Assembly: GCA_016630905.1 (NCBI GenBank)
Contig: WBMQ01000013.1
Span: 372,001-436,000, forward strand
Direction of reading: 5' to 3'
Source: Capillidium heterosporum
Lineage: Eukaryota; Entomophthoromycota; Entomophthoromycetes; Entomophthorales; Capillidiaceae
Length of the DNA stretch: 64,000 nt
In this document: positions 15,213 to 54,837 of the stretch, in pieces
Numbering within the stretch: position 1 is the stretch's first letter
Layout of the letters: each line of letters opens with the position of its first letter
Position numbers and translations under genes: made by a program
Notes under the pieces: generated by a model
Told to the model about the DNA's origin: nothing
Seen by the model: the letters and a program-made list of their open reading frames with translations, nothing else
The model's database searches: none

Positions 15213-15278
15213 ATGGGACCAACCTTCATCACTATCATCAAAGCTGCCAAAGCCGCTAAGGGAAAGACCTCCACTTAA
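15213..15278 (+). CDS. 21-residue cationic amphipathic micropeptide (GP-peptide family, MGP subfamily)
   Basis: Encodes 21 residues beginning MGPTFITIIKAAKAAKGK and ending in Ser/Thr. Too small for normal gene finders, but it matches at least a dozen other loci in this window in sequence and layout. A TATA-like ATATAAAA lies at 15151-15158, about 60 bp before the ATG, and TGTAAATA lies at 15313-15320, 35 nt after the stop. Residues 5-20 alternate hydrophobics and lysines with helical periodicity, and there is no signal peptide. Function unknown; membrane interaction is inferred from composition only. This is the most isolated copy of the family in the window. Confidence 0.7.
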   Translation: MGPTFITIIKAAKAAKGKTST

Positions 15279-15329
15279 ACAAGATAAGAGTACGATCCTC
15301 TTAGGGAACACTTGTAAATACATATCATT

Positions 15330-18300
15330 TTTGAACTGAACACCATCCGAGTATACCGTTAGTACAGATGCTGCTAAGCTGTAAAGCTTATATACATCAT
15401 TTCATTTAAATAAACATACTTTAACATACTATATTTTATATTACGTTCGAATATGATGAAATTTCAATTATATATCTAATGCTATTTTAGCTATAGCCTT
15501 GATTTAGGTCAAGTATTTTTGTATATAACTTTCGAATATCATCAAACGTTGGCATTGGCTACTATAACCTTGTTTCGTTAATCTTATCAACTTCCTTAGT
15601 TCTTGTTGCCTCTCATCGCCAATATTTCTTTTTTGACAACCTGTATAATGGCTTATCTATCTATATAACTGGAAAGTTGATAATAATATACGTCTATCTA
15701 ATGGTAAGATCAATTGTAAAAGAGTTTACCTATAAGCTGTAGCTACAGTTGATGGGGTACGAAGTGGACTTTTAGGCCAAGATGGAGGAGATTCTATAAA
15801 AAATAGATCCTAAACTTGCACTATGAGTGTCTTATTTATACTGGAATGGAAAAGTGTTGATAATAGGGTGGTTATTTAAGTATATTTTAAAGTAAAGCTA
15901 CTGATACAGCTGTCCAAACTAGCTTTTTGGATGAAAAGGTGCTGATTTTACTATATTAAAGATGAAGATACTATATCCTCTCATAAATTAGCAACTGATG
16001 TCTAGTCAGCATATAAATAATACTTTACTTTCTCAACTTAATTCAAATATATTGAATAAATCCCCATCATAGTAGAAACTTATCGTATGAATATCCAATA
16101 GGAATAGTTGATGTGCATTTAAGGATAGTGACTCGACGATAATAGCATTTGGACTGTATTAAAATGATATACATTTATATTTTTATTAGACTGTAGAGTT
16201 TATATTAAGTAGCTTCCTATATTTTCCAGCATCTAGGTAAAACTAGTGATATCTAAATTGGTTGAGATGTAAATATTTTAAAGTACTTGCTTTAGACTTC
16301 AAAAATATACCTTATAATCAAATAAATTACTGATTTCAATAAATTTAAGTAGTTCTACAATATTAAAAATGGCAATTTTGAATATATTTGACGTAATTAC
16401 TAAATGATTTAAACCCTAAATTTACAAAGTTTATCAAATTTAATCCTTTCATTCTAGTCCAACAATGAAGAATGGGAGCTCAACTAGCAAGCGAGAAAAA
16501 GGTGCCGAAATGGAAAGCAAAAGTGGATGACGATAGGTCAAAAGATAGGCATCCAACTTTACAATTGAAAGTAAGTTGTATTCAAATAGTCAAAGACAAA
16601 CTTGTAGGGCAAATTACCAGCCATAAAATTTACTTTATAACCTTACAATTGTAGATGTTTGCAGCAAAATTCGAGCGAGGAAAACAAATAATCAACCAAT
16701 TTATCAAATGAGGGGCATAATTAGCTCAAATTTTCCTATATTATTGAAAAAAGCACTCGTTCTCTATTACTAAAGGTAAAGTTTTTTATGGTAGCTAAAG
16801 TTGGTAAGTTGGCACAGGTACATGAAGTTGTAGCTCATAAATAAATGTTCAAACTCAATACTGACCTAACTTGGGATATTTATGACACCAAAGATAATAA
16901 ATCTAGAGCATGGGACCCCAACTCGATAAAAACTATCGCTCCAAAGCCATCAAAAGTATCAACAAGTAGTCTAGATCATATGAAATTGAGCTAGAAACTG
17001 AGGATCCCAAGTTTTTACTGTATAAAAGACATATAATAAAGTTTATCAATAGTTATTCTATATTGGATAGTTACGACTTAATCAAATTTTAAGCGAAACC
17101 TTTCCCAACTTCCAAGTTGAAAAGAATGCTATCTTCAACTTCTTGATTATCAACCTCAACATCTCGATCCACAAATTGAATTCCAAATTCAAGCTGATCG
17201 ATAATTCGAATATAGGTCGAAAGGTATTAGATTTCTTCAAGTTTCCCATATTAACCGACCTAGGCTTCATGATCAACTACATCTTTATCGATCAAACCGA
17301 CTTCAGCATCCACACGTGAGCCATCTACCGTTGAAATCTAATAAACATAACTCAAGTCAATACTAAACCGATGTCTACTCACATTATGATGGTCATCATA
17401 TCCTTTACAAATATTCTTATATAAAACTACAAACCCTTGTTATTATCAATAGGTATAAAGAATAGAGACGGATTATTGTCACTTATCTCCATCGACTTGG
17501 GCGTAAGCAATTACAAAACTTTGTCATACAGACTTTGGATACTATAGATCGCAACAAATCGATGCAAAAGTTCTACTCGGTACTGGCTAATCTACTCTAG
17601 CTTGAGAGCAAAGAGATCAAAGCAGTTATCATGGAACGCGAGTACAGATATGTCAGGTTATCATTAAGCAACAATAAATTTTACCAATCTACCACTTCTG
17701 GAAGTTTGTGACTCCTATTATTAAATATAAGACTTTTGAAGCTAGTGAGAGCCTAAAGCCACAGATCCAAGAGGTTTGTTAAGCTCTATCGTCTAACCAT
17801 TTGGAACATTCAGTCCTGTATGCCAGTGACACTCTATTCAAATGCCTGATCAAAGGAGTAGATCAAGAAAAGCGATTAAAAATTTAGAATAGGGCTGAGC
17901 TATATCATATTTTTCAAGTTTCTTTTATAAATGGGGAAAGGCGTAGGCAATTTGTAGGTAAGCTACTCTATGGTTGATTATGGACGTCAACAAAAGTTGC
18001 CTATGTTTGTGTTTTTGTCTTATTTTGGATAGATTAATGAATTTAAATAGTTATCTGTACCATCAGCTTATTTTTATGTAAATAAAGGGTATATATTCCA
18101 GGTTTTATTGGTAAAGCTATACTGAGCTTTATTCGTTTAGAGAATTGCACAAGTGTTTAATAATAGTATTGGTAGAGGAACAAAGCGTACCGACAATGGA
18201 ATTTAATTATAGAAATGATCGATGAAGGTAACTACATTGTCTTGGTTCAATTCAAATTCATCTAACCAAGTGCTAGCTATTTCTACTATACCGCCAAGAA

Positions 18301-18523
18301 AGTGACTTGATACCACCCACCAAATACTCTTTCAACTTCAAGTTGAACATTTTCATCAGCTTCTTGGAGGTTCCCAACTAAAAATTACCAATGGAATGAA
18401 AATTTTATCAGCTACCATTGGTCCAAACTTTTTCAAGAACAAAGTTTTGAATTCTCTACATCCACCTAATTTCAAGCAAAAAGTTGAACTTTGACCTTCT
18501 CCCATAGAACCAACTTCAAAGCA
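15330..18523. other. intergenic with coding-like relics upstream of NOB1
   Basis: Mostly stop-rich. On the plus strand about 17095-17320 one frame stays open for roughly 75 codons (it includes FFKFPILTDLGFMINYIFID) with no start, and later stretches up to about 17900 keep coding-like composition in shifting frames; the family was not recognised. A frame at 16472-16654 and a short one just before NOB1 are likewise unassigned. Probably decayed genes. Confidence 0.35.
16910..16969 (+). CDS. possible 19-residue MGP micropeptide, doubtful
   Basis: ATG GGA CCC opens a 19-codon frame reading MGPQLDKNYRSKAIKSINK. It shares the MGP start, length and a Lys-rich end with the family, but the hydrophobic core is missing and no clear TATATAAA box or TGTAAATA element is placed as in the other copies. 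It may be a decayed copy or chance. Confidence 0.2.
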   Translation: MGPQLDKNYRSKAIKSINK

Positions 18524-20845: not shown

Positions 20846-20885
20846 TATTTACAAGTCTCCTTTAAAGAAATATAACTTGGCATAA

Positions 20886-20951
20886 TTAGGAGATGGATGA
20901 AATCTTTTTGGCCTTGGCGACCTTTATAATCTTGATGAAAGTTGGTCCCAT
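20886..20951 (-). CDS. 21-residue cationic micropeptide (GP-peptide family, MGP subfamily)
   Basis: Minus-strand gene encoding 21 residues starting MGPTFIKIIKVAKAKKI and ending SSIS. Its TATATAAG box is at 21008-21015 (57 bp upstream) and TGTAAATA is at 20846-20853, 32 nt past the stop. It aligns over its first 16 residues with the copies at 15213, 40946 and 43110. No signal peptide; hydrophobic residues at 5, 6, 8, 9 and 11 against lysines at 7, 10, 13, 15 and 16 make one helix face apolar. Function unknown. Confidence 0.72.
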   Translation of the reverse strand: MGPTFIKIIKVAKAKKISSIS

Positions 20952-21019: not shown

Positions 21020-24000
21020 TTCAAAATATGAGCAAATTACCACCAAGGATTTGAATAGCTGAGATGTGGATTTTACAATATAACGAGAAAAAATTGGTTG
21101 AAATATGGAGGCAGGTTGTATAAGCTTTTGAGGACTTGGAAATGTAGCTTATGTGGGCATATGGAGATTAGAAGGATGCTAATTATAGAGTGTTCTAAAA
21201 CTGATAGTGTATGAAAAGGTTTTATTGTCGATAAATAATCAAGAAATTTGGGTCCCACTACAGGTATTTACCAGTAGCCTTAATAATATTCAAGCTGTAG
21301 AATTTTACAATCACTTGCTACATCCAAAGATTGTAAATTATTAAGTGTTATATGACCAAGTAAATGTCTTTAGAAATTGATTTCATATTCATCAAGTCAA
21401 GGAAACACGATATAGGTATTCTAAAGGATAAGGGAAGGCAGGTGTAAGACTCAATGGTTCTGAAATGTTAATTCATAATTTAAGTAAATTTACTAAGCTT
21501 TAATCTCCTTAAACAAGCATCAGTCTTGGAAACGCATTCTTAGCCTCATCTATTTAACTAACATTGTATATACCAATATTTTTAAATAAGTAATCAGTAT
21601 CTGATAAGGTAATAATATTTCAACATCCGTAGAGTAGCACTATCCTATCAAGCATCTATTATTAATGAGATATATTAAACTGGTTATAGAAGACCATATA
21701 TAGGCGAAACAGCCTACCTGCAAATTAAAATTTTATTAAAATGATATATATGAGCTTGAACTACTCCTTTAGATTACTAATTTACCAAGTGTATCCGGCA
21801 TTAAATTCGGCCTACATGTTAAAACGAACTCAGTTTACATGTACAGAAGCTTCTCAAATGTAGCTGCTGTAAATTCCTACCACTTAACAAAGTTTAGAGA
21901 TATCGGTTTAAATTAAAAACTATAATATCAAGAAAAATTATAAAAATCGGATGTAGTGGCTTTTGCTATATTTAGAAATATACTTGTTTGGATTCCAACT
22001 ACCTTTCCCAAACAGTAACAATTTTAATTTGGCATCCATCTAGACTTTAGACAATAAAATAAAACTCAACAGGTTGTCGCTATAATTACAGCCTGCCAAA
22101 CCAAACTGTAAGAACGAGACTGCTGTATATAAATCATCAAGGAGTTTTGGATGTAATGAATGCATATTTATAATGAACTGCGTAAACCAAGTAACTGAGA
22201 AATCGAGGTGTTTGAATACAACACCTACAGTTAATTAAAACCAGATTGTTGGCCTAATCGTTCGTATATAAATATATACGCCATGATCAGACAACGGTGG
22301 TGCTGGCATCATTTCATGGCCTTGAGTTTGTAAAGTACTAATGATTTGGAAAATACTGTCTTTTCATTGGCTGCAGTAATATTTTGACCTTGAGTAAGAA
22401 AAGGTTGCCTGACCAAACTATATATTATAGACATCGATAGGATTAGGCTATCCTTAGTTAAATTCATTGAATCGTTTGAGAATAATAAGAATTCTCTTTG
22501 AGCAAATTTAAGATGAACTAACTTTGCAAATAGCATCATACAATTATACTACGACGCTCATCTTATTCAAACTAAGCTATTCTTATTACATATGCTTTTG
22601 CTAACGAATCGTATATCTCATTTAAATGTATTATCGCTACAATCTACTTATAGTCACCTTGAATATTTTCAAATACTTTATTTCAATATTTGTACTCATC
22701 TACCTTTACTATATTATCTTATATTCCAATACTTTTATTTAAAATTTCAGAATTGAATCTACATATCATATACAGCCACTATCTGCTTTTCATTCAACGT
22801 AGATAGAAGATGCGTGCTTACAATAAATTTTATATCGTACGTATATAGCTGGGTATAGTATAAATAATACCTTGAGGCCGTTTTAACAGTTGAGGCTTTG
22901 AAGCATATATAAAATAAATATACATTTCTTTTATCTTTAAGCAAGTCTATAAAACAAGCTCATTGAAAGTATAATACCTTTATTGCGCACCTGAATGTTT
23001 TAATATATTAGAAAATGATAGTTTACCTTTTCCTAATTGCTATAAAAGTAGATAAATGACTTTGATGAGTTCAATCATTGTACTTGAAGGGTGTCAATAA
23101 TAGATGTGAAGACGATATTAATTAATAATATGGAAATCAGATGCATTTTTGTAAATTATCAGTTTTGTAGCTTCCTATAATACTTTTGATTATATAGCTC
23201 TGTAAGCAATGTACAGTAATAATATATAAAGCTGTGAAACTAAACAATACTATAAATTGTCGCACTTGAAAAAAGTACTATAACTGCTTTACATCTAAGT
23301 AAACCTAGACTTTTAACCTATTTAGTAAACTACAATAGGTTGAGTTTGAATTTGCTACTCTTTGGGTTATCGATTGACAATGAGCAAAGTCCTGGAAACC
23401 AATCAGCTTATAGATTAGATATATGCTAATTATAGTAAGAGGATGTTTAAGTATAGTGCATGCCTAGAAATAGTAGCGATCATAGAGAAATGATTTTTTA
23501 AACAGAGCCATGGAATTGATGTGTACTCTATTGTATTTACTCATCAGTTTTTGGAAGGTTGATTCAAAAATGATACCTTACAGTACAACCACCGACTTGT
23601 AAAGGCCATTTTGTAAGCAATTAAATCAAACTAACCGACTATGCCTTTTAATTTTATAAATTCTTTCATGTGAAGCATACTATTTTTGCCTCCATAAGTT
23701 GAGTCTTACTGTATTCCCTTTGGTAGATTTGATTAGCTTGGTTGAAATTGATCCAAAGATATCGATAGTTACGGTGGTAATTTAAATTGACTTGATTTTA
23801 TATATGATATAAAAGACATTTAGGTTCAATAGGACAGATATTTATCCTATACCAAAATAGTGTAGTCGGTAGATAGCTTCAACAAGCATTTGGGAAAGGC
23901 TGTGGCTACTTGTAGTTTGAAGGGTCAGAAAGTTGGTAGTATTGAAAGAGAAAAGTACAGTTGAAGCTTCGTGTCCATAAGTATTTGGATGAAATACCTG

Positions 24001-25107: not shown

Positions 25108-25170
25108 ATGACTGGACCATACTTAATTAGGCTCATCAAATCTACAAAAAGTACCAAGGACTCCTCTTAA
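25108..25170 (+). CDS. 20-residue micropeptide (GP-peptide family, MTGP subfamily)
   Basis: Encodes MTGPYLIRLIKSTKSTKDSS. TATATAAA is at 25044-25051, and TGTAAATA at 25205-25212, 35 nt after the stop. Compared codon by codon with the copy at 28054, seven codons differ silently (counting the stop) and only two change the residue (Tyr/Ala at 5, Ser/Gly at 15), a pattern expected from selection on the peptide. No signal peptide or processing site is apparent. Net charge is about +3. Function unknown; a membrane-active or signalling role is speculative. Confidence 0.78.
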   Translation: MTGPYLIRLIKSTKSTKDSS

Positions 25171-26559: not shown

Positions 26560-26622
26560 ATGAGTGGACCGCCCTTAATCATACGCATCAAAGCGATCAA
26601 AGCCTCCAAGAACACTCCTTAA
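26560..26622 (+). CDS. 20-residue micropeptide (GP-peptide family, MSGPP variant)
   Basis: Encodes MSGPPLIIRIKAIKASKNTP, the middle gene of the tandem array. TATATAAA lies at 26494-26501. The 3' element is changed to CTTCCACATACC at the corresponding place, so TGTAAATA is not preserved. Its GPPLII-R/K-IKxIK core links the tandem array to the copies at 34859 and 45468. Thr/Ser at position 2 plus Gly-Pro is conserved while the C-terminal third varies. Confidence 0.75.
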   Translation: MSGPPLIIRIKAIKASKNTP

Positions 26623-28053: not shown

Positions 28054-28116
28054 ATGACTGGACCAGCCTTAATCAGACTCATCAAATCAACCAAAGGCAC
28101 TAAGGACTCCTCGTAG
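28054..28116 (+). CDS. 20-residue micropeptide (GP-peptide family, MTGP subfamily)
   Basis: Encodes MTGPALIRLIKSTKGTKDSS with a TAG stop. It is the closest paralogue of 25108. TATATAAA is at 27986-27993. At the usual 3' position the element reads TGCAGATACC, a variant also used by 45468. Preserved reading frame and residues against many silent changes make this pair the strongest evidence that these tiny frames are translated. Confidence 0.78.
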   Translation: MTGPALIRLIKSTKGTKDSS

Positions 28117-29402: not shown

Positions 29403-30372
29403 ATGGCTACTATACATAAACTTCATGGCCTTAGAACCAAAACAACTGTGAAGTTTAGAAAGCAGATAGTTGACGACCATATTTTAAAGTTCAAAAGCGC
29501 CAGGGAAATTAATTCAGAATATAGAGTAGCTGATCGAACTGTCAGGAACATATTGGATTACTTTGGCGAGCAAAAGTACAATGTAAACTTAGAGGAGGAG
29601 CATGAAGAGTAAATATTAAGGATCACCATGACGATTTTTAAGGGATACTATCGATGACGAATATGAAGAAAATGTTCTAATTTTAGAAGACCTGGTGGAT
29701 AAGCTATTGTTAGAATTTGTAGACGACTTTCCACAGGAGAACTCTATTAATCTACCAGCAATATGCAACTATGTCAATAGTAAGCTATGTTTAACTCTAA
29801 AGCGAACTTCATCAACTGAAATGGACCAAAGATCTAGTAAAACTCAATATTATCGACTAAAGTACTGTGAAGATTTGCAACCCAATCGAATCAGCTATGT
29901 AGATAATTGTATTTTTGTAGATGAATCTTGTTTCCATGCTTGTATGGTTTTAGATAGAGCAAGGTTCAAAAAAAGGGAAAAAGGCACATATTCTAACTAA
30001 AATTAAACATGCTAAAAGTATCCCCATTATTTCTGCTATTAACTCAAAAGGCGTTGAGATACTAAAAGTATATATATATTTGCTAATTTTATTGAAAAGT
30101 CGGATCATAAGTATAATAGGCGAATGTTTGTGATTGTGGACAATGCTAAACTCCACAATAGTAAAAGTGTCCAAAAGCTTTTCAATTCAATCCGATTGAA
30201 ACAATGTTTAGTAAGCCTAAAAACTTGTTAGAAGCCTATGAAAGAGTAGAGATATGCCCAATCTAATTAAAGAAGCACAGAATACGATCAAGCCTAAAGA
30301 CTATAAAGACTGGGTAAGGCACTGCACAAAAAATATCATCAATTGTTTAAGAGTCGTCATTTTTAAGAACAA
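29403..30372 (+). pseudogene. Tc1/mariner (IS630-like) transposase relic
   Basis: Three pieces in three frames. 29403-29612 begins with ATG and encodes a helix-turn-helix-like segment (AREINSEYRVADRTVRNILD). 29695-30000 includes VDNCIFVDESCFHACMV, matching the first acidic (DE) catalytic strand. From 30122 FVIVDNAKLHNSKSVQKL matches the second D strand (DNAxxH). The order and motifs fit a DDE transposase of the Tc1/mariner-IS630 group that once moved by cut and paste. Frame shifts and stops show it is dead. Terminal inverted repeats could not be fixed by eye. Confidence 0.7.
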
Positions 30373-30669
30373 TTTTTCGTGCAAAATGGTTATTTTTTAA
30401 AGTCTTCATTCTGGCAGAACGATTTTCAGCATAGATTTAGAATAAGTTAAATGGGCTTAGAATTCTATCAATCTATTAATAAGGTGACAGATTGCAAATA
30501 TGTGAGTATATTTTTGCAGGTTTACTATGTTATATTATGTCATAGTTCGATATGTAAGTAACAAATATTATAAAACGACTATATAAAGCAATATGAAAGG
30601 CAATGTATAAATTGAATATACAAAACGAACTATTAAAAGATGCTTAAGCAAATCTAGTATAGTTTTAGT

Positions 30670-34858: not shown

Positions 34859-35002
34859 TCATTGCCGGGTCGAAAGGGCTTTGGAGTTAGAGTTCGGCCA
34901 GCTAGAAGGATTGCCAAGCTGGTTCTCTGGAGAAGCCTTCTGAAGTTTCGTTACAGCACCTTTGATTGATTTGATCTTTACTATTATGGGCGGTCCAACC
35001 AT
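34859..35002 (-). CDS. micropeptide-family member with C-terminal extension (47 residues)
   Basis: Minus-strand frame starting MVGPPIIVKIKSIKGAV, clearly matching MTGPPLIIKIKSIKGIKK at 45468 with silent changes (CCA/CCG, CCA/CCC, AAA/AAG, TCG/TCA) in the shared part. A TATATAAAG box lies at 35063-35071, about 61 bp upstream. After residue 15 the similarity ends and the frame runs another 32 residues of unrelated polar sequence. Position 2 is Val, not Thr/Ser/Gly. Most simply the original stop was lost through an indel; it could also be a longer isoform. Confidence 0.55.
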   Translation of the reverse strand: MVGPPIIVKIKSIKGAVTKLQKASPENQLGNPSSWPNSNSKALSTRQ

Positions 35003-36481: not shown

Positions 36482-36568
36482 TCATATTTTCCAAGGCCAC
36501 TTCATTTTATATATCAAGCTACGATTCCCTTCTTTTGATAGGGTGAGTCTAAAAATTGGTCCAGTCAT
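36482..36568 (-). CDS. possible MTGP micropeptide, 28 residues, doubtful
   Basis: Minus-strand frame starting MTGPIFRLTLSKEGNRSLIY. The first eight residues match the family (MTGP-hydrophobic-hydrophobic-R-L), the rest does not, and the only TATA-like sequence is too close to the ATG (about 28 bp). Probably a decayed or frame-shifted copy. Confidence 0.3.
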   Translation of the reverse strand: MTGPIFRLTLSKEGNRSLIYKMKWPWKI

Positions 36569-36959
36569 CCTAGCTACAGATATGTAGCTGTCCATCTATA
36601 TACATTAAGTTCAAGACACAATCTCGGCTTCCAATATATCTGCTTAAACCAATAAATTGGCAAGGTAGTAGCTTATACTTATGTAGAAAGCTAAATCAAT
36701 GCCACACGACAGTCATATGAGGCTCCTCAGTACATATTTGTTACCAGTTTATGCAATGAAAATATTTTGGGTTTACCATATTGATAAAGCTGCTTTTTTA
36801 GACGTAGATAAGTCCACCTTCACCACCCTTGTTCCTGTATCCGAAATTTACTTGCAGGTTTGGTTGATGGAATTTGAGCAACAAATTTAGGACTTGTCAT
36901 AAAAGTTTAGCAAACTGTATTAATAAGATAACTTGAATGCTCTTATACTAATTGTAAGA

Positions 36960-38888: not shown

Positions 38889-39600
38889 AGTATTACTATG
38901 CTAAAAGTAAAAGTACGGGTAAAGGATAAGTTTATTTAGGGACAAAGGGCGAGATCAGGCTGCTGGGAACAGCTATGGCTAGGGACAGGGGGTGAGTAAC
39001 AGCTATTAAAAATAGCGAGATGGAACGTTGTCAAGATACTGGCTTTTGGTAGTCACCAAGGGGTTTAAATATCCTTTTGGTACCTTGGATGTAGTAAAGT
39101 TAGCGGGGTTGGATTCCCCTGCGGCAATCCACTACTCTATAGATTAATTGAGTGTTTACCAAGTTTATCCAAAAGGCCAGTCATTATCTTAACTACTACT
39201 GATGTGTTTTCCATTGTTGGAAGGTGTGGATCAGCTAGTATGCTACTAATCGTTGAAGTTCCCAGGTTATGGTCAAGTTTAAGAAAATAATAAAGATAAT
39301 CGAAATAATTGATATGTGGGGTGGATTCGTAACTTAGTTATGAATCGGGGAACAGAAAAAAAGAAATTGAAAATTAGTAAGAATTAGCAAGAGGAAGGGA
39401 ATCTAAGAAAAGAATAGGTCTATGACCTAATAATCGGGATTGTGATGACCAGGGTTGTTACACAAACTTTTGCTTAAGATATAGGTAAAGGTTAGAATGA
39501 AAATATCTAAATATGTATTTCCAAAGTATTTACTGATCTTTAAACGAATATATAAAGCTAGTTCCGCGCCTTTCAAGAATTCATATTTAAAATCCAATTA
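38889..39600. other. 5' flank of the 38.4-kb gene and promoter remnant of a micropeptide copy
   Basis: Contains the TATA-like ATATTTAAAC near 39070 on the minus strand (shared with the duplicate at about 37275) and, on the plus strand near 39553, an AATATATAAAGC box that serves the dead micropeptide copy at 39616. Confidence 0.4.
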
Positions 39601-39615
39601 TATCAATAACTATCA

Positions 39616-39685
39616 ATGTGATCACAGTGTTTGAAAACTCATCAAAGCAGCTAAAATCAAAAAAACTGATTTTTTAAAAAAGGCT
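39616..39685 (+). pseudogene. relic of a GP-family micropeptide gene
   Basis: ATG at 39616 lies about 60 bp after a TATATAAAG box, as in live copies, but the frame is broken. In the frame shifted by one base the sequence reads stop-KLIKAAKIKKTDF, matching the family core (compare FIKAAKEKKK at 40946). The Gly-Pro start is lost. An intact promoter with a dead frame shows that copies of this family die in place. Confidence 0.55.
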
Positions 39686-40799: not shown

Positions 40800-40945
40800 T
40801 CAAATAACCTAATATTTACATAGGTTCGTAGGAAAATCAATGAGATGTAGTAAGGGTTTTAGAGTATATATGTGGGAAGACTATTGAATTCTATTCTAGG
40901 ATATTTACAGGTAGCTCGCTTGAAACTAATCTTTTTGAAGTATAC

Positions 40946-41005
40946 TTAGACATTCTTCTTCTTCTCCTTGGCGGCCTTAATAAACTTGATGAAGGTGGGA
41001 CCCAT
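40946..41005 (-). CDS. 19-residue cationic micropeptide (MGP subfamily), left-arm copy
   Basis: Encodes MGPTFIKFIKAAKEKKKNV, net charge about +5. TATATAAG is at 41063-41070 and TGTAAATA at 40902-40909, 36 nt past the stop. Compared with the neighbouring unit at 43110, six codons differ silently and six conservatively (Ile/Leu, Phe/Leu, Ile/Val, Ala/Val, Asn/Ser, Val/Ala), while all lysines, the Glu and MGPTF stay. The hydrophobic residues fall on one side of a helix. No signal peptide. Function unknown. Confidence 0.78.
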   Translation of the reverse strand: MGPTFIKFIKAAKEKKKNV

Positions 41006-43109
41006 ATTGTAGCTGTTTGCTTGTTTGTTTATGTATATCAAGCTCATTGAAGTTAAGCTTGCCTTATATACCTGTCAAAATTTCTTAAATTTTAATAGAT
41101 GTTGTTATCGATTTGCGTAGTATATCATAGTTCCATAGCTACGGTTCATCTTAAGCTCCTTGATCCCAGGCAATGAAAACACTAAAGGTCGGTTGTTTTA
41201 GTGCTGGCGAAACAATTTTCATTTTGGCAAGGATAAGTCAATTTGCCTTGGGATTTGGTTCCTGTAGCGAAGACTGATTCAAAAGCTATTTTTAGTACTC
41301 CCAGCTGAGAAATTCGAAAATTTTGCTGGGAACCTGCCATAAAGGTGTTTAAAATGGCCTTCTATTCAAACTTGTTGAATTCAAGAATCTTCGCTATATT
41401 TTTATAAAGAGAGGTAAATAGATATTTGACAGGCTTCTGAAATTAGATCTGCGGACTTGATGCTTTATGATATAATAAGCAAGTCAAAGTCATTATAAGA
41501 TGTATCTAATAAGTTTACAGGGACGTCTTCCTGGATATACACATTCGTTGTGGTGGTAATGTTGATTTAAATCTTTGAAGTCCAGTAAAAGGATTTGTTA
41601 TAAAGCAAGTGTTTTATAAGCTTTACTACTATTCTGACTAACATTAAATGAGTCATTTTTGCATGTGTGTTTAAAATATAACTATTCTAACTTTAATCGA
41701 ATTCGTATAGTTTACAATACTGTGTTTATTCTGTTAAATTTTTATTGTAGTCTCTGAGTATAACCCTTTTCGATAAATGTCAAAGCTTTGTATCATTGCC
41801 ATTAGACTTGTGCAGTAGCAACATAGGCAATTGTCGTTCATATAAATAGTAAATTTCAGCTAGACCTTTATTACAATAGCAAATTGATAGCGTACTCCAT
41901 AGCTAGCTTCGAAATTTAAAATTTTACAACTTTCAGCTGACAGATGCATATAGTAAAGCTGAGTTGAAGTTGCTTTATAGTTTATAATTACTTTTAAATG
42001 TTGTTTATAAAGCATTCAAGTTTGTAAAAAGTAGCTAGGTACTTATCATTGTAATCAATCAACATTTATCTAACTAGAGTTAATGGGCCTATTAAATAGC
42101 AGCTCCTTCAAGGTGGGTAAAGTTGTGTCGAATACGATCTAATCTTTAAATTCTAAGGATTGATTAGGATAAAGCTATAATAAACTATTTTTAAGGCAAG
42201 TATATAGTGTATTCAAAATAAAATTGGCTTTTAGTAAGAATAGGCTATGTATATACCTTAATCGAATTAAAAGTTTAAAAAGTTCATTTCGAGTCAAATA
42301 TAAATATATTTATAACCTATTTAGACTATTACTAAGATTCTATGTATATGACATCCTTTTATTTAGCTAAATGACGAAAGTTTTTATTTAATTGATGGTA
42401 ATTCGAGCTCAAAACCAGTTACACATCTAAACAACAGGGATTTTCATTTAAATGTCGATTTTTGGGCGGACAATTGTTCAGCACATTTAGAAGAACGTTT
42501 ATTTCATTTAGGTAGCGATTATTGACATCCAATTGATCTTTGCTCTAAAGTTGAGCCAATATAATTAAATCTTAGAAAAGACAAAATATACTAATGAGAC
42601 AAGGGAATAACAAAACTGTATCCATCTAGTTCAGCTAGAAAATCCATACATTGTTTAAAGGTTAAAGGATGGCTTACAACACCACTAGTAGCAACTTCGT
42701 TATCTGTTCGAAACTAGCAACCAATACTACTTTATCATCATAATAATAAAAGTATATATAGTTACATATAGCCAGTTTGTATTTAATTTTAAATACAAAA
42801 TGATATACACTACACTAAACATAAAAGGGATAGGTGGTAATGGCAACAGTTAAATCGAATTGGTTTAACAAATATATCAACGTCGCTGGTAGAAAACGTT
42901 CACAATTTTTAAAGGATAAATGACGATATAATTAAATAGATTTATTGTTCAATATAAGAATATCGTAGTAGTGTAATATTTAGATAAGTATGTGGTTAAA
43001 ATTAATGGTATATAGTAGGGTGATTTAAATATATATATCGGAATACAATCGAATTCCATTCTATGGTATTTACAAGTTGCTTGCTTGAAGCTTGCTCTTT
43101 TAAAGGCAC

Positions 43110-43169
43110 TTAGGCACTTTTCTTCTTTTCCTTAGCGACTTTAACAAGCTTAAGGAAGGTTGGGCCCAT
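43110..43169 (-). CDS. 19-residue cationic micropeptide (MGP subfamily), left-arm copy 2
   Basis: Encodes MGPTFLKLVKVAKEKKKSA. TATATAAAG is at 43223-43231 and TGTAAATA at 43067-43074. Farther upstream it shares with the 40946 unit the blocks CTACGCA, GAAAACACTAAAGGTCGGTT and a GTTGAATTxxAAG block, so the two genes are tandem duplicates about 2.16 kb apart within the arm. Confidence 0.78.
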   Translation of the reverse strand: MGPTFLKLVKVAKEKKKSA

Positions 43170-44511
43170 ATTAATATTTTACGATGTAATTGTTTGTGAA
43201 TGTTGAATTCAAAGACGCTAGCCTTTATATACCTGCCAAAATTTATCGAAATTTACAGCTATTATTGCCTCAGTGCGTAGTATATTAAAATTTTATGGCT
43301 ACGGTCTATCTTAAACTCCTTGGTCTTTGATTATGAAAACACTAAAGGTCGGTTATTTTGATTCTGGTGAAATTGTGGGTATTTTTGGTAGGAATGGGCA
43401 AATTCTCCTTGGAATTTGGTTCTTGTAACGTGGACCAAAGTTCAGTTTATTTTTAGGATTTCCAGCCGAGAAATTTAAAAAGGTTCATTGGAAGCTTGCC
43501 ATAAAGATATTATAAAATGTACCCCTATTCGGACTTGTTGAATTTGAAGGGCCTTTCCTGTATTTTTGTCAAGATACTGAAACGATGCTTATCAAATTTC
43601 TTTAAGATGTACCTGCGGACTCAACACTTTGTGCTGAGCATAAACAAGACATATATAGTACCTGATACGCTCAGTAAACACATTAGTGCCTTGGAGCAGC
43701 GATAATTCTACTTTTTACGAAAAGTATTTCTACTATAACAGATATTTTCTTTGAATTGATAGTTGAAATTCAACCTGATATTTCATTTGGATCTTTAAAT
43801 ACATCTATTTTATAATGGCGATGTTATGTACAGCTATTCAACTGGACCGATAGTTGGAGAGGCAATACTGTTAAAATTGACCAACTTTTAATATTCAATA
43901 CATCTTATATATAAAATAGATACTTTATAGTTTACTTTCAAACAGCCATCAATTGCTATAGACTATTTAGTGATCTATGCTTAACTTGTACTTCAACTAT
44001 TGTTTCCTTGACAGACTGATGAAGGGTCTATTAAGGTTGTCGAGGCTATCATTTTCGAATACTGAGCAGTTATCAACTTATCAATTTCCTTTTATTAATT
44101 GACTATTCTAGAAAATAGTGAATGCAAAGTTAATTTTACAACCTAAAAATATCATGATTATGACTATACATAAACAAAAGCTTACAATATCCTTGAATAC
44201 GCAACATCAATTATAAATTTCCTTTTTCATACATGGCCAAATTTGCAGTTTACTTTGTTCCAACTTCTTTTGGCCTTCTCAACTAAATTTAGAAAGCTCC
44301 TTCCAAATTGTAGCAACAACTTCGCTTTGTCAATTTTTAATTCAGTATATATATAAACTACTTCAATTTACTATTGTGCAAAGCTTCTTAATAGAATACC
44401 ATTTACTTTAAATCCTTATGCAAAGAAGTTTTTGTGAGTGTAGGTTCACTACAAGTAAACAAGCTATATCAAATATTGATAAGATGATCAAGCTTCATTG
44501 TCTTAGCCATT

Positions 44512-47391
44512 ATAAGAAATTGATATCTTAAAGTACTAAGTGAATCTACATTAATATATATATATGTACGATAAATTACAAATTGTCGTATTTAAAGGTA
44601 TAAAATTATGTATAGTATAGTATAATGTTGTCGATCCGCATATCCTTTATAAACATTACATTAGTACAATAAAGGTAAATAGTATAAAAATAGCAGCACT
44701 TATTAATAACAATGGTATCTCAGTATCCTTCAATTTCATATTCTTTCTATAACCTATTTAAAATTTATGGTGACACCAGCTTATTACAAAAAGTTTTGCC
44801 ACAGAAATTGGCACAAGCTTTTAGATTATCTGTCAAACTCTAGAATTGTGTTCAGCATTTAGCTCCTTTAAAATTTTAAATGAAATCAAAATGATTTGTA
44901 TATAGTAATTTCTGATTTGAAGTGAAGCCTATACAAAAAGATATGTACGGGAACTATAAATATTGAGAAGAAAGGATACTTTTACCATCTAGCCAACAGA
45001 TTAATGTAATTTTCCATCAATTGATATTAGGAGTATAAATCGAGCCTCAATCGAATAGATATCATTTCTCAAGCACTGATTACTAATGCCGTTTCATAAA
45101 GCTACATTCATATAGCTTGATTTCTAAACTATATACATGCTAATATATAATTTTAGCAATCAATAAACTGTCATGTGGCAGAAACAATGAATATTTCATA
45201 GATAGGAAGTATAGGTACAAAATTAACAAAAGTAATTATGCAAATTCTATTCATTGTATCCAAATAACGATGGTATACAGTCAGGCCTATTTAAAAGATA
45301 AATAAAAACGCCATTTAAAATGTAGCCCAATGTTTAGGTTATTATAGTAAATATTTGTTGTAGATATTTAATAGTTCACTGTAATATACTAAAGTAGCAA
45401 GGTACAGGAAAATATACGTTCCAAGGGTAAATTAGACATAAGGTATCTGCAGGTCGCTTCCTGAAATTCAAGGTAATTTTTTGATACCTTTGATCGATTT
45501 GATTTTTATTATTAATGGTGGTCCAGTCATATTTATAGCTAAAGATATAACTACCTGTTTATAAAATTTGATGAAGTTGAAGCCGACAACTTAAATCTAG
45601 CGTTTATATATGCATCCGATCTATAATTTCTTTAACCTGCAATGCTTTGTACATGTTACCATGGATATATACCTACAATATATCATCTGTTCTCTCAAAA
45701 GTATATTATTATAGTTTAACAAAGGATAGGTTCAACAAAGGTAGTACTTTAACAAAGAAACTGATATACAAAGAAAGATATATTAATAAAGAAGGTGCTT
45801 TAGCAAATAACATAGCTTTAATTCGTAAGCTCAATATATATGAAGCTACAATTGCTTTTTTATGGCCCAAATTCGAAATACTAAATGGATTAATGGAGAT
45901 TGGTACGAATAAGGAAAGTTAACTAATAAGCTATGAAAATATATTAATCAAATGTTGTGAAAATACCAAATTTTTTACTAAAGTATTGTTGCTTTTGTAG
46001 TTTTCCATTGAAAAGGCCATACCTAAACTTTGACAGGTTGAGATGTATCCATAATAAATTCATCTAAGAACTTTAATACAAATTAACAAATTAGTTTACT
46101 TTAGTATTGTCATTATTCGATATATATTATTTGTATAACCATTTGAAATGCTATAATGTGTTGACAGAATATCAGTTTACCATCAGTACCTACAACAAAG
46201 AGTATTTGGTAGTTTAACAGGACGTCGTACCAAAATATAAAATAAATAGAAGCTGAAACTCCTCTAATTGTATTCATGTATTTAAAGCCTTTGGAATATT
46301 ATTAAGTGAATAGTACTCGCCATCAGTCAATTGGTATTATGATAGTCAATTTTATAAAATGAGATCATATAATTCTCCATAATATGACATCTAGTAATAT
46401 TAACTTGGTAGATGCCTTTTGAATATCAAAGTACAAAGGAAAACTAGTTTCTTAAATAGCTCAATATTACTAAATCTGATTAATAAAAACAAAAATGAAG
46501 TTCAACTCAACTTCCTTTCTAAAATATATCGATCCATCTCGGTTCAAAGTAGAGGGTTTTTCGATTGCTTATATTTGTAACGAGCTACATATCTATACCA
46601 GTTAGAACTTAGCTTCAACTTTTTGCAAGTTGATGTAAATTCCATCAGTTGTTTTTGAATTGACATCTACCAAATAGACCTACTTTAAAAGATTTTTATC
46701 AACTGTAAACTTAAATTTCAACTGTCAATTACTTTCAAAGCTATATTTCTGTGTATACATATTTATATTGGCATTGCAGATATTTTTCTATTTACATATA
46801 AGTATCTAATTTACTATTACCATACCACTTCTTTACCTATCGTATCGGTTAAGCAGCTATCTACATCAAAGCTTTTTATTAAATCTACTCCAAAATCACA
46901 CTTAAGCAAATAAAATGACAGAATACCATACAAGAGATCTAAAATATCCTACTAATGTGGAAAAAATGGAGTCGTGAGAATCCCTGGTTTAGAAAAATGG
47001 TAGTATTAAGAAAATATCTGTGATGGGAAACTGTACTTATAGAGAATCTGGTGATTGATCCAAGTGGCAAGTCAATAACTTATTACCAAGTCGAAAGAAC
47101 AATATAAAACTGTTAACAATACCCAAAATTTACAACTATATGGCTGGTACCAATAGCTACTAACGTTTTATTATCAATTTGACAATCTATTGAATATATA
47201 AATCGATATAGAATTCTTTTTAAATTGATGATAGCAGTATTAGCTATAAAAAGTATTTAATATTTCAGCTGCAGGAACATTGGTTTGATCTAAAGATATT
47301 ATGATAAGTCAACGTTGGGAAGATATTGAAATAGACTATATAGTTTATAAAGAAACTACTAGATCAATAAATTTAAAGCTTTTCTTTGACA
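44512..47391. other. spacer between the inverted-repeat arms
   Basis: 2.9 kb of unique AT-rich sequence. It holds one micropeptide gene (45468-45530, minus). A 91-codon frame at 45647-45922 has a TTG start and no domain, and overlaps that gene's promoter side. Nothing else recognised. Confidence 0.5.
45468..45530 (-). CDS. 20-residue micropeptide (MTGPP variant) in the inverted-repeat spacer
   Basis: Encodes MTGPPLIIKIKSIKGIKKLP, the best match to the extended copy at 34859 and to 26560. The TATATAAA-type box is at 45603-45610, about 73 bp before the ATG. The 3' element is TGCAGATA at 45444-45451, 17 nt past the stop, the same variant as at 28054. Alternating Ile/Lys residues give an amphipathic helix or strand. 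Function unknown. Confidence 0.72.
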   Translation of the reverse strand: MTGPPLIIKIKSIKGIKKLP

Positions 47392-48733
47392 AATGGCTAA
47401 GACAATGAAGCTTGATCATCTTATCAATATTTGATATAGCTTGTTTACTTGTAGTGAACCTACACTCACAAAAACTTCTTTGCATAAGGATTTAAAGTAA
47501 ATGGTATTCTATTAAGAAGCTTTGCACAATAGTAAATTGAAGTAGTTTATATATATACTGAATTAAAAATTGACAAAGCGAAGTTGTTGCTACAATTTGG
47601 AAGGAGCTTTCTAAATTTAGTTGAGAAGGCCAAAAGAAGTTGGAACAAAGTAAACTGCAAATTTGGCCATGTATGAAAAAGGAAATTTATAATTGATGTT
47701 GCGTATTCAAGGATATTGTAAGCTTTTGTTTATGTATAGTCATAATCATGATATTTTTAGGTTGTAAAATTAACTTTGCATTCACTATTTTCTAGAATAG
47801 TCAATTAATAAAAGGAAATTGATAAGTTGATAACTGCTCAGTATTCGAAAATGATAGCCTCGACAACCTTAATAGACCCTTCATCAGTCTGTCAAGGAAA
47901 CAATAGTTGAAGTACAAGTTAAGCATAGATCACTAAATAGTCTATAGCAATTGATGGCTGTTTGAAAGTAAACTATAAAGTATCTATTTTATATATAAGA
48001 TGTATTGAATATTAAAAGTTGGTCAATTTTAACAGTATTGCCTCTCCAACTATCGGTCCAGTTGAATAGCTGTACATAACATCGCCATTATAAAATAGAT
48101 GTATTTAAAGATCCAAATGAAATATCAGGTTGAATTTCAACTATCAATTCAAAGAAAATATCTGTTATAGTAGAAATACTTTTCGTAAAAAGTAGAATTA
48201 TCGCTGCTCCAAGGCACTAATGTGTTTACTGAGCGTATCAGGTACTATATATGTCTTGTTTATGCTCAGCACAAAGTGTTGAGTCCGCAGGTACATCTTA
48301 AAGAAATTTGATAAGCATCGTTTCAGTATCTTGACAAAAATACAGGAAAGGCCCTTCAAATTCAACAAGTCCGAATAGGGGTACATTTTATAATATCTTT
48401 ATGGCAAGCTTCCAATGAACCTTTTTAAATTTCTCGGCTGGAAATCCTAAAAATAAACTGAACTTTGGTCCACGTTACAAGAACCAAATTCCAAGGAGAA
48501 TTTGCCCATTCCTACCAAAAATACCCACAATTTCACCAGAATCAAAATAACCGACCTTTAGTGTTTTCATAATCAAAGACCAAGGAGTTTAAGATAGACC
48601 GTAGCCATAAAATTTTAATATACTACGCACTGAGGCAATAATAGCTGTAAATTTCGATAAATTTTGGCAGGTATATAAAGGCTAGCGTCTTTGAATTCAA
48701 CATTCACAAACAATTACATCGTAAAATATTAAT

Positions 48734-48793
48734 ATGGGCCCAACCTTCCTTAAGCTTGTTAAAGTCGCTAAGGAAAAGAAGAAAAGTGCCTAA
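48734..48793 (+). CDS. 19-residue micropeptide, right-arm copy identical to 43110
   Basis: Encodes the same MGPTFLKLVKVAKEKKKSA as the minus-strand gene at 43110-43169. TATA box at 48672-48680, TGTAAATA at 48829-48836. Duplicated as part of the inverted repeat with no difference seen. Confidence 0.77.
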   Translation: MGPTFLKLVKVAKEKKKSA

Positions 48794-50897
48794 GTGCCTT
48801 TAAAAGAGCAAGCTTCAAGCAAGCAACTTGTAAATACCATAGAATGGAATTCGATTGTATTCCGATATATATATTTAAATCACCCTACTATATACCATTA
48901 ATTTTAACCACATACTTATCTAAATATTACACTACTACGATATTCTTATATTGAACAATAAATCTATTTAATTATATCGTCATTTATCCTTTAAAAATTG
49001 TGAACGTTTTCTACCAGCGACGTTGATATATTTGTTAAACCAATTCGATTTAACTGTTGCCATTACCACCTATCCCTTTTATGTTTAGTGTAGTGTATAT
49101 CATTTTGTATTTAAAATTAAATACAAACTGGCTATATGTAACTATATATACTTTTATTATTATGATGATAAAGTAGTATTGGTTGCTAGTTTCGAACAGA
49201 TAACGAAGTTGCTACTAGTGGTGTTGTAAGCCATCCTTTAACCTTTAAACAATGTATGGATTTTCTAGCTGAACTAGATGGATACAGTTTTGTTATTCCC
49301 TTGTCTCATTAGTATATTTTGTCTTTTCTAAGATTTAATTATATTGGCTCAACTTTAGAGCAAAGATCAATTGGATGTCAATAATCGCTACCTAAATGAA
49401 ATAAACGTTCTTCTAAATGTGCTGAACAATTGTCCGCCCAAAAATCGACATTTAAATGAAAATCCCTGTTGTTTAGATGTGTAACTGGTTTTGAGCTCGA
49501 ATTACCATCAATTAAATAAAAACTTTCGTCATTTAGCTAAATAAAAGGATGTCATATACATAGAATCTTAGTAATAGTCTAAATAGGTTATAAATATATT
49601 TATATTTGACTCGAAATGAACTTTTTAAACTTTTAATTCGATTAAGGTATATACATAGCCTATTCTTACTAAAAGCCAATTTTATTTTGAATACACTATA
49701 TACTTGCCTTAAAAATAGTTTATTATAGCTTTATCCTAATCAATCCTTAGAATTTAAAGATTAGATCGTATTCGACACAACTTTACCCACCTTGAAGGAG
49801 CTGCTATTTAATAGGCCCATTAACTCTAGTTAGATAAATGTTGATTGATTACAATGATAAGTACCTAGCTACTTTTTACAAACTTGAATGCTTTATAAAC
49901 AACATTTAAAAGTAATTATAAACTATAAAGCAACTTCAACTCAGCTTTACTATATGCATCTGTCAGCTGAAAGTTGTAAAATTTTAAATTTCGAAGCTAG
50001 CTATGGAGTACGCTATCAATTTGCTATTGTAATAAAGGTCTAGCTGAAGTTTACTATTTATATGAACGACAATTGCCTATGTTGCTACTGCACAAGTCTA
50101 ATGGCAATGATACAAAGCTTTGACATTTATCGAAAAGGGTTATACTCAGAGACTACAATAAAAATTTAACAGAATAAACACAGTATTGTAAACTATACGA
50201 ATTCGATTAAAGTTAGAATAGTTATATTTTAAACACACATGCAAAAATGACTCATTTAATGTTAGTCAGAATAGTAGTAAAGCTTATAAAACACTTGCTT
50301 TATAACAAATCCTTTTACTGGACTTCAAAGATTTAAATCAACATTACCACCACAACGAATGTGTATATCCAGGAAGACGTCCCTGTAAACTTATTAGATA
50401 CATCCTATAATGACTTTGACTTGTTTATTATATCATAAAGCATCAAGTCCGCAGATCTAATTTCAGAAGCCTGTCAAATATCTATTTACTTCTCTTTATA
50501 AAAATATAGCGAAGATTCTTGAATTCAACAAGTTCGAATAGAAGGCCATTTTAAACACCTTTATGGCAGGTTCCCAGCAAAATTTTCGAATTTCTCAGCT
50601 GGGAGTACTAAAAATAGCTTTTGAATCAGTCTTCGCTACAGGAACCAAATCCCAAGGCAAATTGACTTATCCTTGCCAAAATGAAAATTGTTTCGCCAGC
50701 ACTAAAACAACCGACCTTTAGTGTTTTCATTGCCTGGGATCAAGGAGCTTAAGATGAACCGTAGCTATGGAACTATGATATACTACGCAAATCGATAACA
50801 ACATCTATTAAAATTTAAGAAATTTTGACAGGTATATAAGGCAAGCTTAACGTCAATGAGCTTGATATACATAAACAAACAAGCAAACAGCTACAAT

Positions 50898-50957
50898 ATG
50901 GGTCCCACCTTCATCAAGTTTATTAAGGCCGCCAAGGAGAAGAAGAAGAATGTCTAA
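50898..50957 (+). CDS. 19-residue micropeptide, right-arm copy identical in peptide to 40946
   Basis: Encodes the same 19 residues as 40946-41005. TATA box at 50833-50840, TGTAAATA at 50994-51001. The arms differ by a base in the 5' leader of this gene (left CATTGAAGTT, right CATTGACGTT read in the same direction), not in the peptide. Confidence 0.77.
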   Translation: MGPTFIKFIKAAKEKKKNV

Positions 50958-51563
50958 GTATACTTCAAAAAGATTAGTTTCAAGCGAGCTACCTGTAAAT
51001 ATCCTAGAATAGAATTCAATAGTCTTCCCACATATATACTCTAAAACCCTTACTACATCTCATTGATTTTCCTACGAACCTATGTAAATATTAGGTTATT
51101 TGAACGATACTATACCGAAAATAAATATCCTTAATTGTAATTATTGCTATCCTTTTTCAAAACGTTCTTTAAATATCTATATTTGCAACGCATACTACCC
51201 TAAGTAATCTTTTAAATCTGATACAACTCTTCATACCTTATATCAGTATTGATATAAGCCAGTTATGTATACTTTACTATACAGTTGTTGGAGCTTTAAA
51301 TTAATTATATATGAATATTAGATATATGGACGTAAACTATCTAGGAAACAAACTACAATATATACTCATATAATTTCTTCCTGTCGCATTTAAATATACT
51401 ATTGAAGCTCATAATAACTTATTGTAATCATAGTATGAATAAAATGTACAGATCATCATATATAATAAAATGTGGGAGCTGAAATATGTTTAATATTCGG
51501 TTAAAATAGGTAACAAAAGGTAGATTAAAATTAAATTTTACGATGAACACTACCCTAGGGAAC

Positions 51564-51620
51564 TTAGAAGTTTCGTTTCGCCTTGGCAATTTTGATGAGC
51601 CTGGTAAAAATCGGTCCCAT
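51564..51620 (-). CDS. 18-residue micropeptide (MGP subfamily)
   Basis: Encodes MGPIFTRLIKIAKAKRNF, minus strand, just outside the right arm. A TATATAA box is at 51682-51688, 62 bp upstream. No TGTAAATA is found at the usual place after the stop, where the sequence reads GTTCCCTAGGG. Shares MGPxF, (R/K)LIK and AKAK with the copy at 20886. Confidence 0.68.
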   Translation of the reverse strand: MGPIFTRLIKIAKAKRNF

Positions 51621-53730: not shown

Positions 53731-53777
53731 AGCATCTACAAACTATTTCGCTTGGAGTTGGATTCATTTGAAGACGT

Positions 53778-53840
53778 TTAGATGGAGCTCTCGCTCTTTT
53801 TGACAAACTTGGTACAAACGATTATAGGCGGACCTGTCAT
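53778..53840 (-). CDS. 20-residue micropeptide (MTGPP variant with Cys)
   Basis: Encodes MTGPPIIVCTKFVKKSESSI on the minus strand. The TATATAG box is at 53902-53908, 62 bp upstream. TGTAGATG at 53733-53740, 38 nt after the stop, is a degraded form of the 3' element. It is the only copy with a cysteine, and its lysines are fewer; it may be drifting, but start, length and layout are kept. Confidence 0.62.
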   Translation of the reverse strand: MTGPPIIVCTKFVKKSESSI

Positions 53841-54783
53841 AGTGCCATTTAATGATCCATTTTATCAATAAAAATTCTAAATTAAGCTACCTAACCGGGC
53901 TCTATATACACGTCCAATGAGTGGAGTCTGAAGATTAAGTATTCAATCTTTGGGCTTTTGCTCCAAAAGTGCATCTATTATCCATTGAATATCTCTTGTA
54001 ACTTGACGTGGCCAATTCTCACAGGAAGTACGATTGAATGAAGGAGTTAATATTAAAAGGTGTCTAAACGGAAGATGCAATTTAGGCGAGGCCCTTTCAA
54101 CAGAAGGGGCAGGTGGAGATAACAGGTTTAAGTTCTAGTGAAACATGTGGAACTGGGATGAAAGTGTAAAAACTAAAGACGCTAAGTTATATCTAAAAAG
54201 AAACGACAGTATTGAAGTTAATTGAAAAGGGAAAATCCCTTGGCTAAATGAAGTAGAAACTAATGGACTAATTTAACAATTTCCCTTGGTAGATTTGCAA
54301 CTTTTTAGTTCAAACGGTCATCTTCATACTTTTGCCAAATTGTGAAGCAAGTTCAAATAGTATATCTGGATCTATAGGTAGAGTTTGCCAGGAGCTATTT
54401 AATGAGTGGTTGCTCTAACATTACTAGGAAAACCTTTACAAACCTGTTTGAAGCCCTAAAGAATGACAATATGCTCATTTACTACCAATAATTTCAATAG
54501 ATGATATTCTTTATTAGATTAGGTTGGTGTAGTATCTAAATCGAAAACAATTGCAGTATTTAAACATTTAAACAAATTTCCTTCCATACAAATATTGAAT
54601 AATAGTCTATCAAAACTCACGCTAAATTTATTGTAATAGTATCAAACATATTGTGGAAAATTCGACGATATTGGTTTTAATAGGTATTCGAACTAGATTC
54701 CATATTTAAAAGTATCAAAAGATAAGCCTTTATTGAAGTATTTGGGGCGAACTCATTTAGAAGGGACTTTGAAAGTATTTTTC

Positions 54784-54837
54784 TTAGTCCTTGGCTGCTT
54801 TGACAAACTTGATAAGTAAAATCATTTTGAGGATCAT
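54784..54837 (-). CDS. 17-residue micropeptide lacking the Gly-Pro start
   Basis: Encodes MILKMILLIKFVKAAKD; an internal Met at 54825 would give 13 residues. The core LIKFVKAAKD matches other copies, and the TATATAAAG box at 54884-54892 is well placed, but Gly-Pro is missing and no TGTAAATA follows. Either a divergent working copy or one on the way to loss. Confidence 0.45.
   Translation of the reverse strand: MILKMILLIKFVKAAKD

Follow-up and report, generated by a model that had tools for sequence, protein, structure and literature searches.

A probable family of unannotated, TATA-linked genes of about 20 codons encoding cationic micropeptides at a locus of the fungus Capillidium heterosporum

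Background

How small can a free-standing eukaryotic gene be, and can individually promoted genes of about 20 codons form a family that annotation passes over? This question is raised by a 64,000-nt stretch of the Capillidium heterosporum genome (the window; bases 372001-436000 of the 1.37-Mb contig C5, in a genome of 29.5 Mb and 44 contigs), in which 14 related short frames, 12 of them distinct and two duplicates, lie on both strands between 15.2 and 54.8 kb. An initial inspection of the DNA letters, referred to here as the sequence-only reading, had taken these frames for a dispersed family of leaderless, cationic, amphipathic micropeptide genes preceded by TATA boxes. Taken as a whole this proposal is partly confirmed and largely holds: the strange, unannotated family of genes of about 20 codons is probably real, as judged from its sequence, and the helix type ascribed to its peptides is not supported. 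The text of a survey of conserved small open reading frames (sORFs) in 31 fungal genomes describes frames of at most 80 codons that annotation had missed, and its main text makes no mention of Conidiobolus, Zoopagomycota or zygomycete (PMC7394265). The likeness to such sORF sets lies in short frames overlooked by annotation, and the difference in that the survey, as its text presents it, sought conservation across the 31 genomes. Among the open-licence literature matches listed, covered by titles and the starts of abstracts, an M(x)GP micropeptide family is not described.

Results

All 14 ATG-to-stop frames of the sequence-only reading are present at the coordinates it gave, which for minus-strand copies are left ends. 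In the text below, positions are those within the window and minus-strand copies are named by their start, that is, their right end (20951, 35002, 41005, 43169, 45530, 51620, 53840 and 54837). Thirteen frames had been rated as good, with lengths of 17-21 residues and an M(x)GP start; all exist, but 48734 and 50898 are duplicates of 43169 and 41005 in a 3.7-kb inverted repeat. Twelve of the 13 are 18-21 residues long and start with MGP or MxGP, whereas the copy at 34859 has 47 residues, with a C-terminal part that differs from the other copies. The remaining frame, at 54784, lacks the signature, and in the tree it falls within the MGP subfamily despite its loss of GP. The relics that had been claimed were found with a nucleotide profile at 39533-39662 and 23712-23757, and weakly at 36550-36651. 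The members are:

15213..15278, plus strand: MGP micropeptide gene; MGPTFITIIKAAKAAKGKTST; CATATAA at -63; no GT inside the frame; 3' motif at +100
20886..20951, minus strand: MGP micropeptide gene; MGPTFIKIIKVAKAKKISSIS; TATA at -64; 3' motif at +98
23712..23757, minus strand: relic; TATATAAA upstream; signature start gone, KLIKSTKGN legible; E 0.0012
25108..25170, plus strand: MxGP micropeptide gene; MTGPYLIRLIKSTKSTKDSS; TATA at -64; 3' motif at +97
26560..26622, plus strand: MxGP micropeptide gene; MSGPPLIIRIKAIKASKNTP; TATA at -66; without 3' motif
28054..28116, plus strand: MxGP micropeptide gene; MTGPALIRLIKSTKGTKDSS; TATA at -68; 3' motif at +101
34859..35002, minus strand: divergent MxGP copy; MVGPPIIVKIKSIKG...; 47 codons open; TATA at -69; profile E 6.7e-23
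36550..36651, minus strand: possible relic, weak; starts MTGPIFRL, 28-codon frame; E 0.07
39533..39662, plus strand: relic; TATA box retained, start and frame decayed, KLIKAAKIKK legible; E 8.6e-7
40946..41005, minus strand: MGP micropeptide gene; MGPTFIKFIKAAKEKKKNV; TATA at -65; upstream ATG at -42; 3' motif at +96
43110..43169, minus strand: MGP micropeptide gene; MGPTFLKLVKVAKEKKKSA; TATA at -62; 3' motif at +95
45468..45530, minus strand: MxGP micropeptide gene; MTGPPLIIKIKSIKGIKKLP; TATA at -80; 3' motif at +79
48734..48793, plus strand: duplicate of 43169 in an inverted-repeat arm
50898..50957, plus strand: duplicate of 41005 in an inverted-repeat arm
51564..51620, minus strand: MGP micropeptide gene; MGPIFTRLIKIAKAKRNF; TATA at -68; no GT inside the frame; without 3' motif
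53778..53840, minus strand: MxGP micropeptide gene; MTGPPIIVCTKFVKKSESSI; TATATAG at -68; two upstream ATGs; without 3' motif
54784..54837, minus strand: degenerate member without GP, 17 residues; MILKMILLIKFVKAAKD; TATA at -55; profile E 1.5e-21

Short M(x)GP frames (15-24 residues) number 13 between 12.5 and 58 kb, and 12 of these, duplicates included, have a TATA box at -82 to -50; without the two duplicates the TATA-linked count is 10. First-order Markov simulations of this sequence (300 runs) gave on average 0.63 such frames (maximum 4) and 0.013 TATA-linked ones (maximum 1), so that both counts are above chance in this part of the window. The thirteenth frame, at 16910, has neither a TATATA upstream nor the lysine pattern and is probably a chance occurrence. 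The rest of the window together with eight 10-kb control stretches from beyond the cluster, of which four flank it and four are more distant or on other contigs, yielded a single short M(x)GP frame, without TATA. Across 12.5-58 kb a similar box precedes 65 of all 1394 ATGs (4.7%, family included). TATATAA is abundant in this region, with 75 occurrences in 45.5 kb versus 3-11 per 10 kb in the control stretches, and the 4.7% background, being taken at matching distance, already accounts for this richness. A nucleotide profile recovers all 14 copies in the window at E 9e-37 to 1.5e-21; because 12 of the copies built the profile, their own scores follow by construction, and it is the relics and the controls that are independent. 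The best profile match in the eight control stretches had an E of 1.8, and two more weak matches in the window (E 0.57 and 1.3) were not counted as family.

The copies also share an anatomy outside their frames. Every one of the 12 distinct copies is preceded, at -55 to -80, by TATATAA, CATATAA or TATATAG; the boxes had been placed 50-75 bp upstream, and one is indeed found at every copy, duplicates included, with a single box lying further out, at -80. A purine occupies -3 in 10 of the 12. Downstream, a TG[TC]A[AG]ATA motif (TGTAAATA-type), which we take to resemble Pumilio/Puf3 and UGUA polyadenylation elements, occurs at +79 to +101 in nine of 13 frames scanned, the nine including two duplicates and the scan leaving out 35002. 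Copies are on average 71% identical over the first codons and 64% in the TATA bin; the remaining bins between -300 and +300 give 52-62%, and there is no abrupt downstream edge up to +300 (65 of 66 pairs, the 41005/43169 pair being left out, aligned with mild scores). Exact TTTACCC/GGGTAAA sites are present at -122 to -164 upstream of three of the 12 copies (25108, 26560 and 28054), in both orientations at two of these three; single extra sites lie upstream of 26560 (-293) and 35002 (-486), and none was found within 500 bp upstream of the other eight distinct copies. This element is possibly the site of a shared regulator.

Are the frames translated? Over codons 2-14 of 25 within-subfamily pairs, which are not mutually independent, the pooled proportion of synonymous differences (pS) was 0.594 against 0.223 for nonsynonymous differences (pN), with pS exceeding pN in 23 pairs; the duplicates 48734 and 50898 and the GP-less 54837 were left out. 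Five disjoint pairs, hand-picked and including neither 51620 nor 54837, differ at 9, 10 and 29 sites in codon positions 1, 2 and 3, respectively (p = 3.6e-4). Codon usage was scored as a log-likelihood of genes versus intergenic DNA, with eight genic segments from this genome set against intergenic base composition and with the two duplicates excluded. The score was +31.6 over 221 codons, with 35002 trimmed to 20 codons, whereas synonymous recodings of the same peptides scored -29.6 +/- 7.1 and the best of 5000 reached -4.7. By frame, the proposed one gave +29.9, the other sense frames -17.4 and -0.4, the antisense frames -15.4, +9.1 and -12.3, and flanking segments -10.8 to -32.0. Third-position GC is 0.52 in the frames versus a GC of 0.28 in the 50 bp upstream. 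A preference for codons of highly expressed genes was not shown: the score fell below zero relative to average gene usage (p 0.05, 35002 cut to 15 codons), with a reference gene that reads as mitochondrial EF-Tu and is a poor yardstick. The short frames thus look translated, with amino-acid constraint and gene-like codon usage that are specific to the proposed frame, and a leaderless, TATA-linked, cationic micropeptide gene family is strongly supported at the level of sequence.

With regard to the peptides, ten aligned sequences (54837 and 35002 left out) all share M, G, P and two lysines. In a set of 11 aligned after GP, which is without the GP-less 54837 and has 35002 cut to 21 residues, every peptide has K at positions 7 and 10, nine have K or R at position 13, and nine have one of these two residues at position 4 or 5. 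All 12 distinct peptides carry a positive net charge, as the cationic label had implied, of +2 to +6, and in ten of them it is +3 to +5; one cysteine occurs, in one of the 12. Judged from frame length (12 of 13 M(x)GP frames have 18-21 residues, one has 47), they are without a signal peptide. The amphipathic helix of the sequence-only reading is not borne out: at 100 degrees the hydrophobic moment ranges from 0.06 to 0.38, no copy significantly exceeds its shuffles (lowest p 0.275), and permutation of alignment columns in the set of 11 is not significant either (p 0.38-0.53 across three lengths). A standard amphipathic alpha-helix is therefore not supported, and the moment instead peaks near 120 degrees, weakly significant at p 0.012-0.044 with eleven angles and three lengths tried. 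Basic residues tend to recur about every third residue. Voltage-sensor S4 segments show similar basic spacing, and no relationship to the micropeptides is claimed.

A tree of the copies has one strong split (support 100/99) into an MGP subfamily (15213, 20951, 41005, 43169, 51620 and 54837) and an MxGP subfamily (25108, 26560, 28054, 35002, 45530 and 53840), and leaves most other forks without resolution. Across the whole genome, an MGP-class pattern matched at eight places, seven in the window and one on contig C27, and its reversed control at none; five single-peptide searches returned 13 rows for 11 different places, all within the window. The genome-wide motif scan that had been proposed thus finds, at limited sensitivity, matches solely at the window locus or on the overlapping C27. 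Queries with DNA retrieved themselves and exact or near-exact duplicates only, and since paralogues 70% alike were missed, the DNA search is insensitive here. For the 47-residue copy, no relatives were found outside the genome, in searches that included no fungal genome collection. Contig C27 (23.7 kb) overlaps the window from 50076 onward at 99.67% identity and covers four copies; relative to the window, its 53778..53840 peptide has V changed to I and its 51620 frame is unchanged. Because all whole-genome matches lie at this locus or on C27, the family looks like a local birth-and-death cluster and a mobile element is unlikely, no copies having been found elsewhere within the sensitivity of these searches.

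The cluster contains a large inverted repeat:

40800..44511, plus strand: left arm, 3.7 kb, carrying two micropeptide genes
47392..51103, minus strand: right arm; arms 99.84% alike by BLAST, centre 2.9 kb

Each arm contains two 650-bp units about 71% alike. The repeat may reflect a recent duplication, gene conversion or a feature of the assembly.

Several other features lie in or near the cluster. A NOB1 homologue at 18488-20063 stands between two micropeptide copies, and because its PIN domain and Zn ribbon are in separate frames it probably has one or more introns. A MULE transposase domain fragment lies within the cluster at 31788-32090 (minus strand), perhaps extending over 29632-32698, where adjoining frames without a Pfam match may be part of the same decayed element. 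Also within the cluster, at 38406-38882 (minus strand), a 158-residue stop-to-stop frame matches no Pfam family and includes hydrophobic stretches of membrane-like character. Genes for a Zn(2)Cys(6) regulator and a GH16 beta-glucanase (59018-62397) form the right border; the nearest named homologues of the GH16 protein are from Neoconidiobolus thromboides (51% over 91%) and Entomophthora muscae (56% over 84%). About 6-10 kb to the left of the window (locus L012, 234-3662), a frame reading as dihydroorotase adjoins a carbamoyl-phosphate synthase large-chain gene on the opposite strand. The best named match of CPA2 by score is from Conidiobolus coronatus (59%), and CPA2 alone is a weak marker of affinity since other fungi also reach 52-60%. 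Taken together, the GH16 and CPA2 homologues suggest that this DNA belongs to Entomophthoromycotina, an early-diverging group, and the genes next to the cluster strongly support its fungal origin. Two 5.8S rRNA loci are present in the assembly (L018 and L019, on C33 and C39; 125.9 and 117.4 bits), and this difference in score could be due to variation among rDNA copies, to a relic locus or to the presence of a second organism.

Discussion

What might these genes do? The best explanation, which we hold tentatively and which falls short of an even chance, is that small mRNAs yield free cationic peptides acting on membranes or other anionic surfaces. Each copy would be transcribed by RNA polymerase II, and the resulting mRNA, of very small size, would in many cases carry a Pumilio-like or polyadenylation signal shortly 3' of the stop. 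The predicted product has an N-terminus of small residues plus GP, followed by a hydrophobic stretch in which basic residues are spaced about three apart. The least certain step is what the free peptide does: as a short cationic effector it would attach to anionic membranes or to another anionic surface, either inside the cell, at a membrane, or after export that needs no signal peptide and is directed at competing cells. Local duplication of copies followed by decay, which is supported computationally, would make this free-standing set of genes of about 20 codons a birth-and-death family, with the paralogues providing sequence variety. Action on anionic surfaces, membranes first, is favored because the peptides are hydrophobic, strongly basic, very short and leaderless, and an effector or recognition role is favored over a single internal regulator because many diverged paralogues and relics occur at one locus.

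A number of observations weigh against this interpretation, or against parts of it. At the level of the gene, an upstream ATG lies at most 45 bp away in two of the 12 copies, the 3' motif is absent from four of the 13 frames scanned, pN is not below pS in two of the 25 pairs, and one antisense frame has a positive codon score, the only positive value besides that of the proposed frame. At the level of the locus, C27 carries two 1-base deletions in the 50898 copy and one in the 54837 copy, for which assembly error is a possible cause, and the whole-genome searches miss the divergent copies 53840 and 54837, leaving confinement to a single locus unproven. At the level of the peptide, the high 100-degree moment that is usual for membrane-active helices is absent, so that charge and hydrophobicity carry the membrane role by themselves, and neither an exporter nor a receptor was identified, with no search aimed at exporters made.

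A somewhat unlikely alternative, and the one that survives best, is that the translated peptides stay inside the cell and tune a partner, such as a mitochondrial import or membrane protein, a pump or a nucleic acid, in the manner of other microproteins, with the N-terminal hydrophobic-basic stretch serving as a docking or targeting motif. A signal peptide does not fit into frames of this length, which makes cytosolic synthesis the default, and both the conservation of exact G, P, K and K positions and a codon usage like that of ordinary genes would suit such a regulator. However, the regulator of one conserved partner would usually be low-copy, and 12 distinct copies with relics at one locus would better fit an arsenal or a recognition family.

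More improbable is a set of leaderless, pheromone-like peptides for cell recognition or mating, with paralogues giving specificity. Fungal a-factor-type lipopeptide pheromones have leaderless small precursors and occur in several copies, and the copy pattern of fungal pheromone precursors resembles the one seen here, where short leaderless frames, near-identical as well as diverged, form two subfamilies at one locus. In contrast to a-factor-type precursors, a C-terminal CaaX box is found in none of the 12 distinct peptides, and the literature matches listed offered no lead. A search of the genome for the STE3 family gave no match, and neither did its own control.

We consider it very improbable that the short frames belong to something larger, as the opening exons of longer, spliced genes or as leaders that control a gene downstream. 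NOB1 in this window apparently has introns, being split over frames, and one copy of the family stays open for 47 codons. Nevertheless, since the intact copies 15213 and 51620 contain no GT between start and stop, a standard GT-AG intron that begins inside the frame cannot bypass their stops; only 20 stop-to-stop frames of at least 85 residues overlap 12.5-59 kb, and no shared frame was seen downstream of the copies, a feature for which no dedicated test was run. Hardly credible, finally, is the idea that the frame is incidental and that what is conserved is an RNA without coding function or a scattered piece of a mobile element: copies do lie on both strands and have common promoter sequence outside the frame, but codon usage is frame-specific and pN/pS low, a structured RNA is rejected with zero consensus pairs predicted by RNAalifold and no Rfam match in the window, and a mobile fragment is at odds with whole-genome matches confined to this locus or C27.

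Free cationic effector peptides, the explanation we favor, invite comparison with known systems. Phenol-soluble modulins are short, hydrophobic and lysine-bearing amphipathic alpha-helices, encoded by several genes and served by a dedicated exporter. The likeness lies in short frames without a signal peptide, the fungal ones being judged by length. The family described here differs in being eukaryotic, in having one TATA box per gene, a GP start and a basic residue about every third position, and in that an amphipathic alpha-helix is not supported for its peptides; a sequence relationship was neither tested nor claimed. Passages of PMC7872022 describe the staphylococcal modulins as secreted without a signal peptide, N-formylated and bacterial. 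The present frames resemble candidalysin of Candida, whose Ece1 family is described in part of the literature as spanning several species, in being short and fungal. Candidalysin is cleaved by Kex2 from a larger secreted precursor; by contrast, the frames here end after 17-21 codons (one after 47), two of them GT-free, with no precursor or leader. Its length is given as 31 residues in the text of PMC12153327. Each of the dozen frames is apparently its own gene, in contrast to the Pri/Tal frames of Drosophila. The latter occupy one polycistronic transcript, and a title in the reference list of PMC11475943 likewise calls the gene polycistronic. Very short translated frames of 36 nucleotides are what the text of PMC11475943 describes for Pri/Tal.

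A broader proposal, that early-diverging fungi possess a new class of self-promoted genes of about 20 codons whose leaderless peptides, with every third residue basic, form an extracellular, diversified system of recognition or killing with its own export route, is unlikely as it stands. A gene family of this kind, in which each member of about 20 codons has a promoter of its own, selection acts on the sequence and copies are gained by duplication and lost by decay, would come close to the minimum size of a eukaryotic gene and fall beneath the length that annotation normally reports. The annotation of fungal genomes may overlook a layer of peptide genes, for which the sequences reported here are a concrete search set. 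Should the peptides target membranes or other cells, fungi would have in them a leaderless counterpart of the bacterial modulins.

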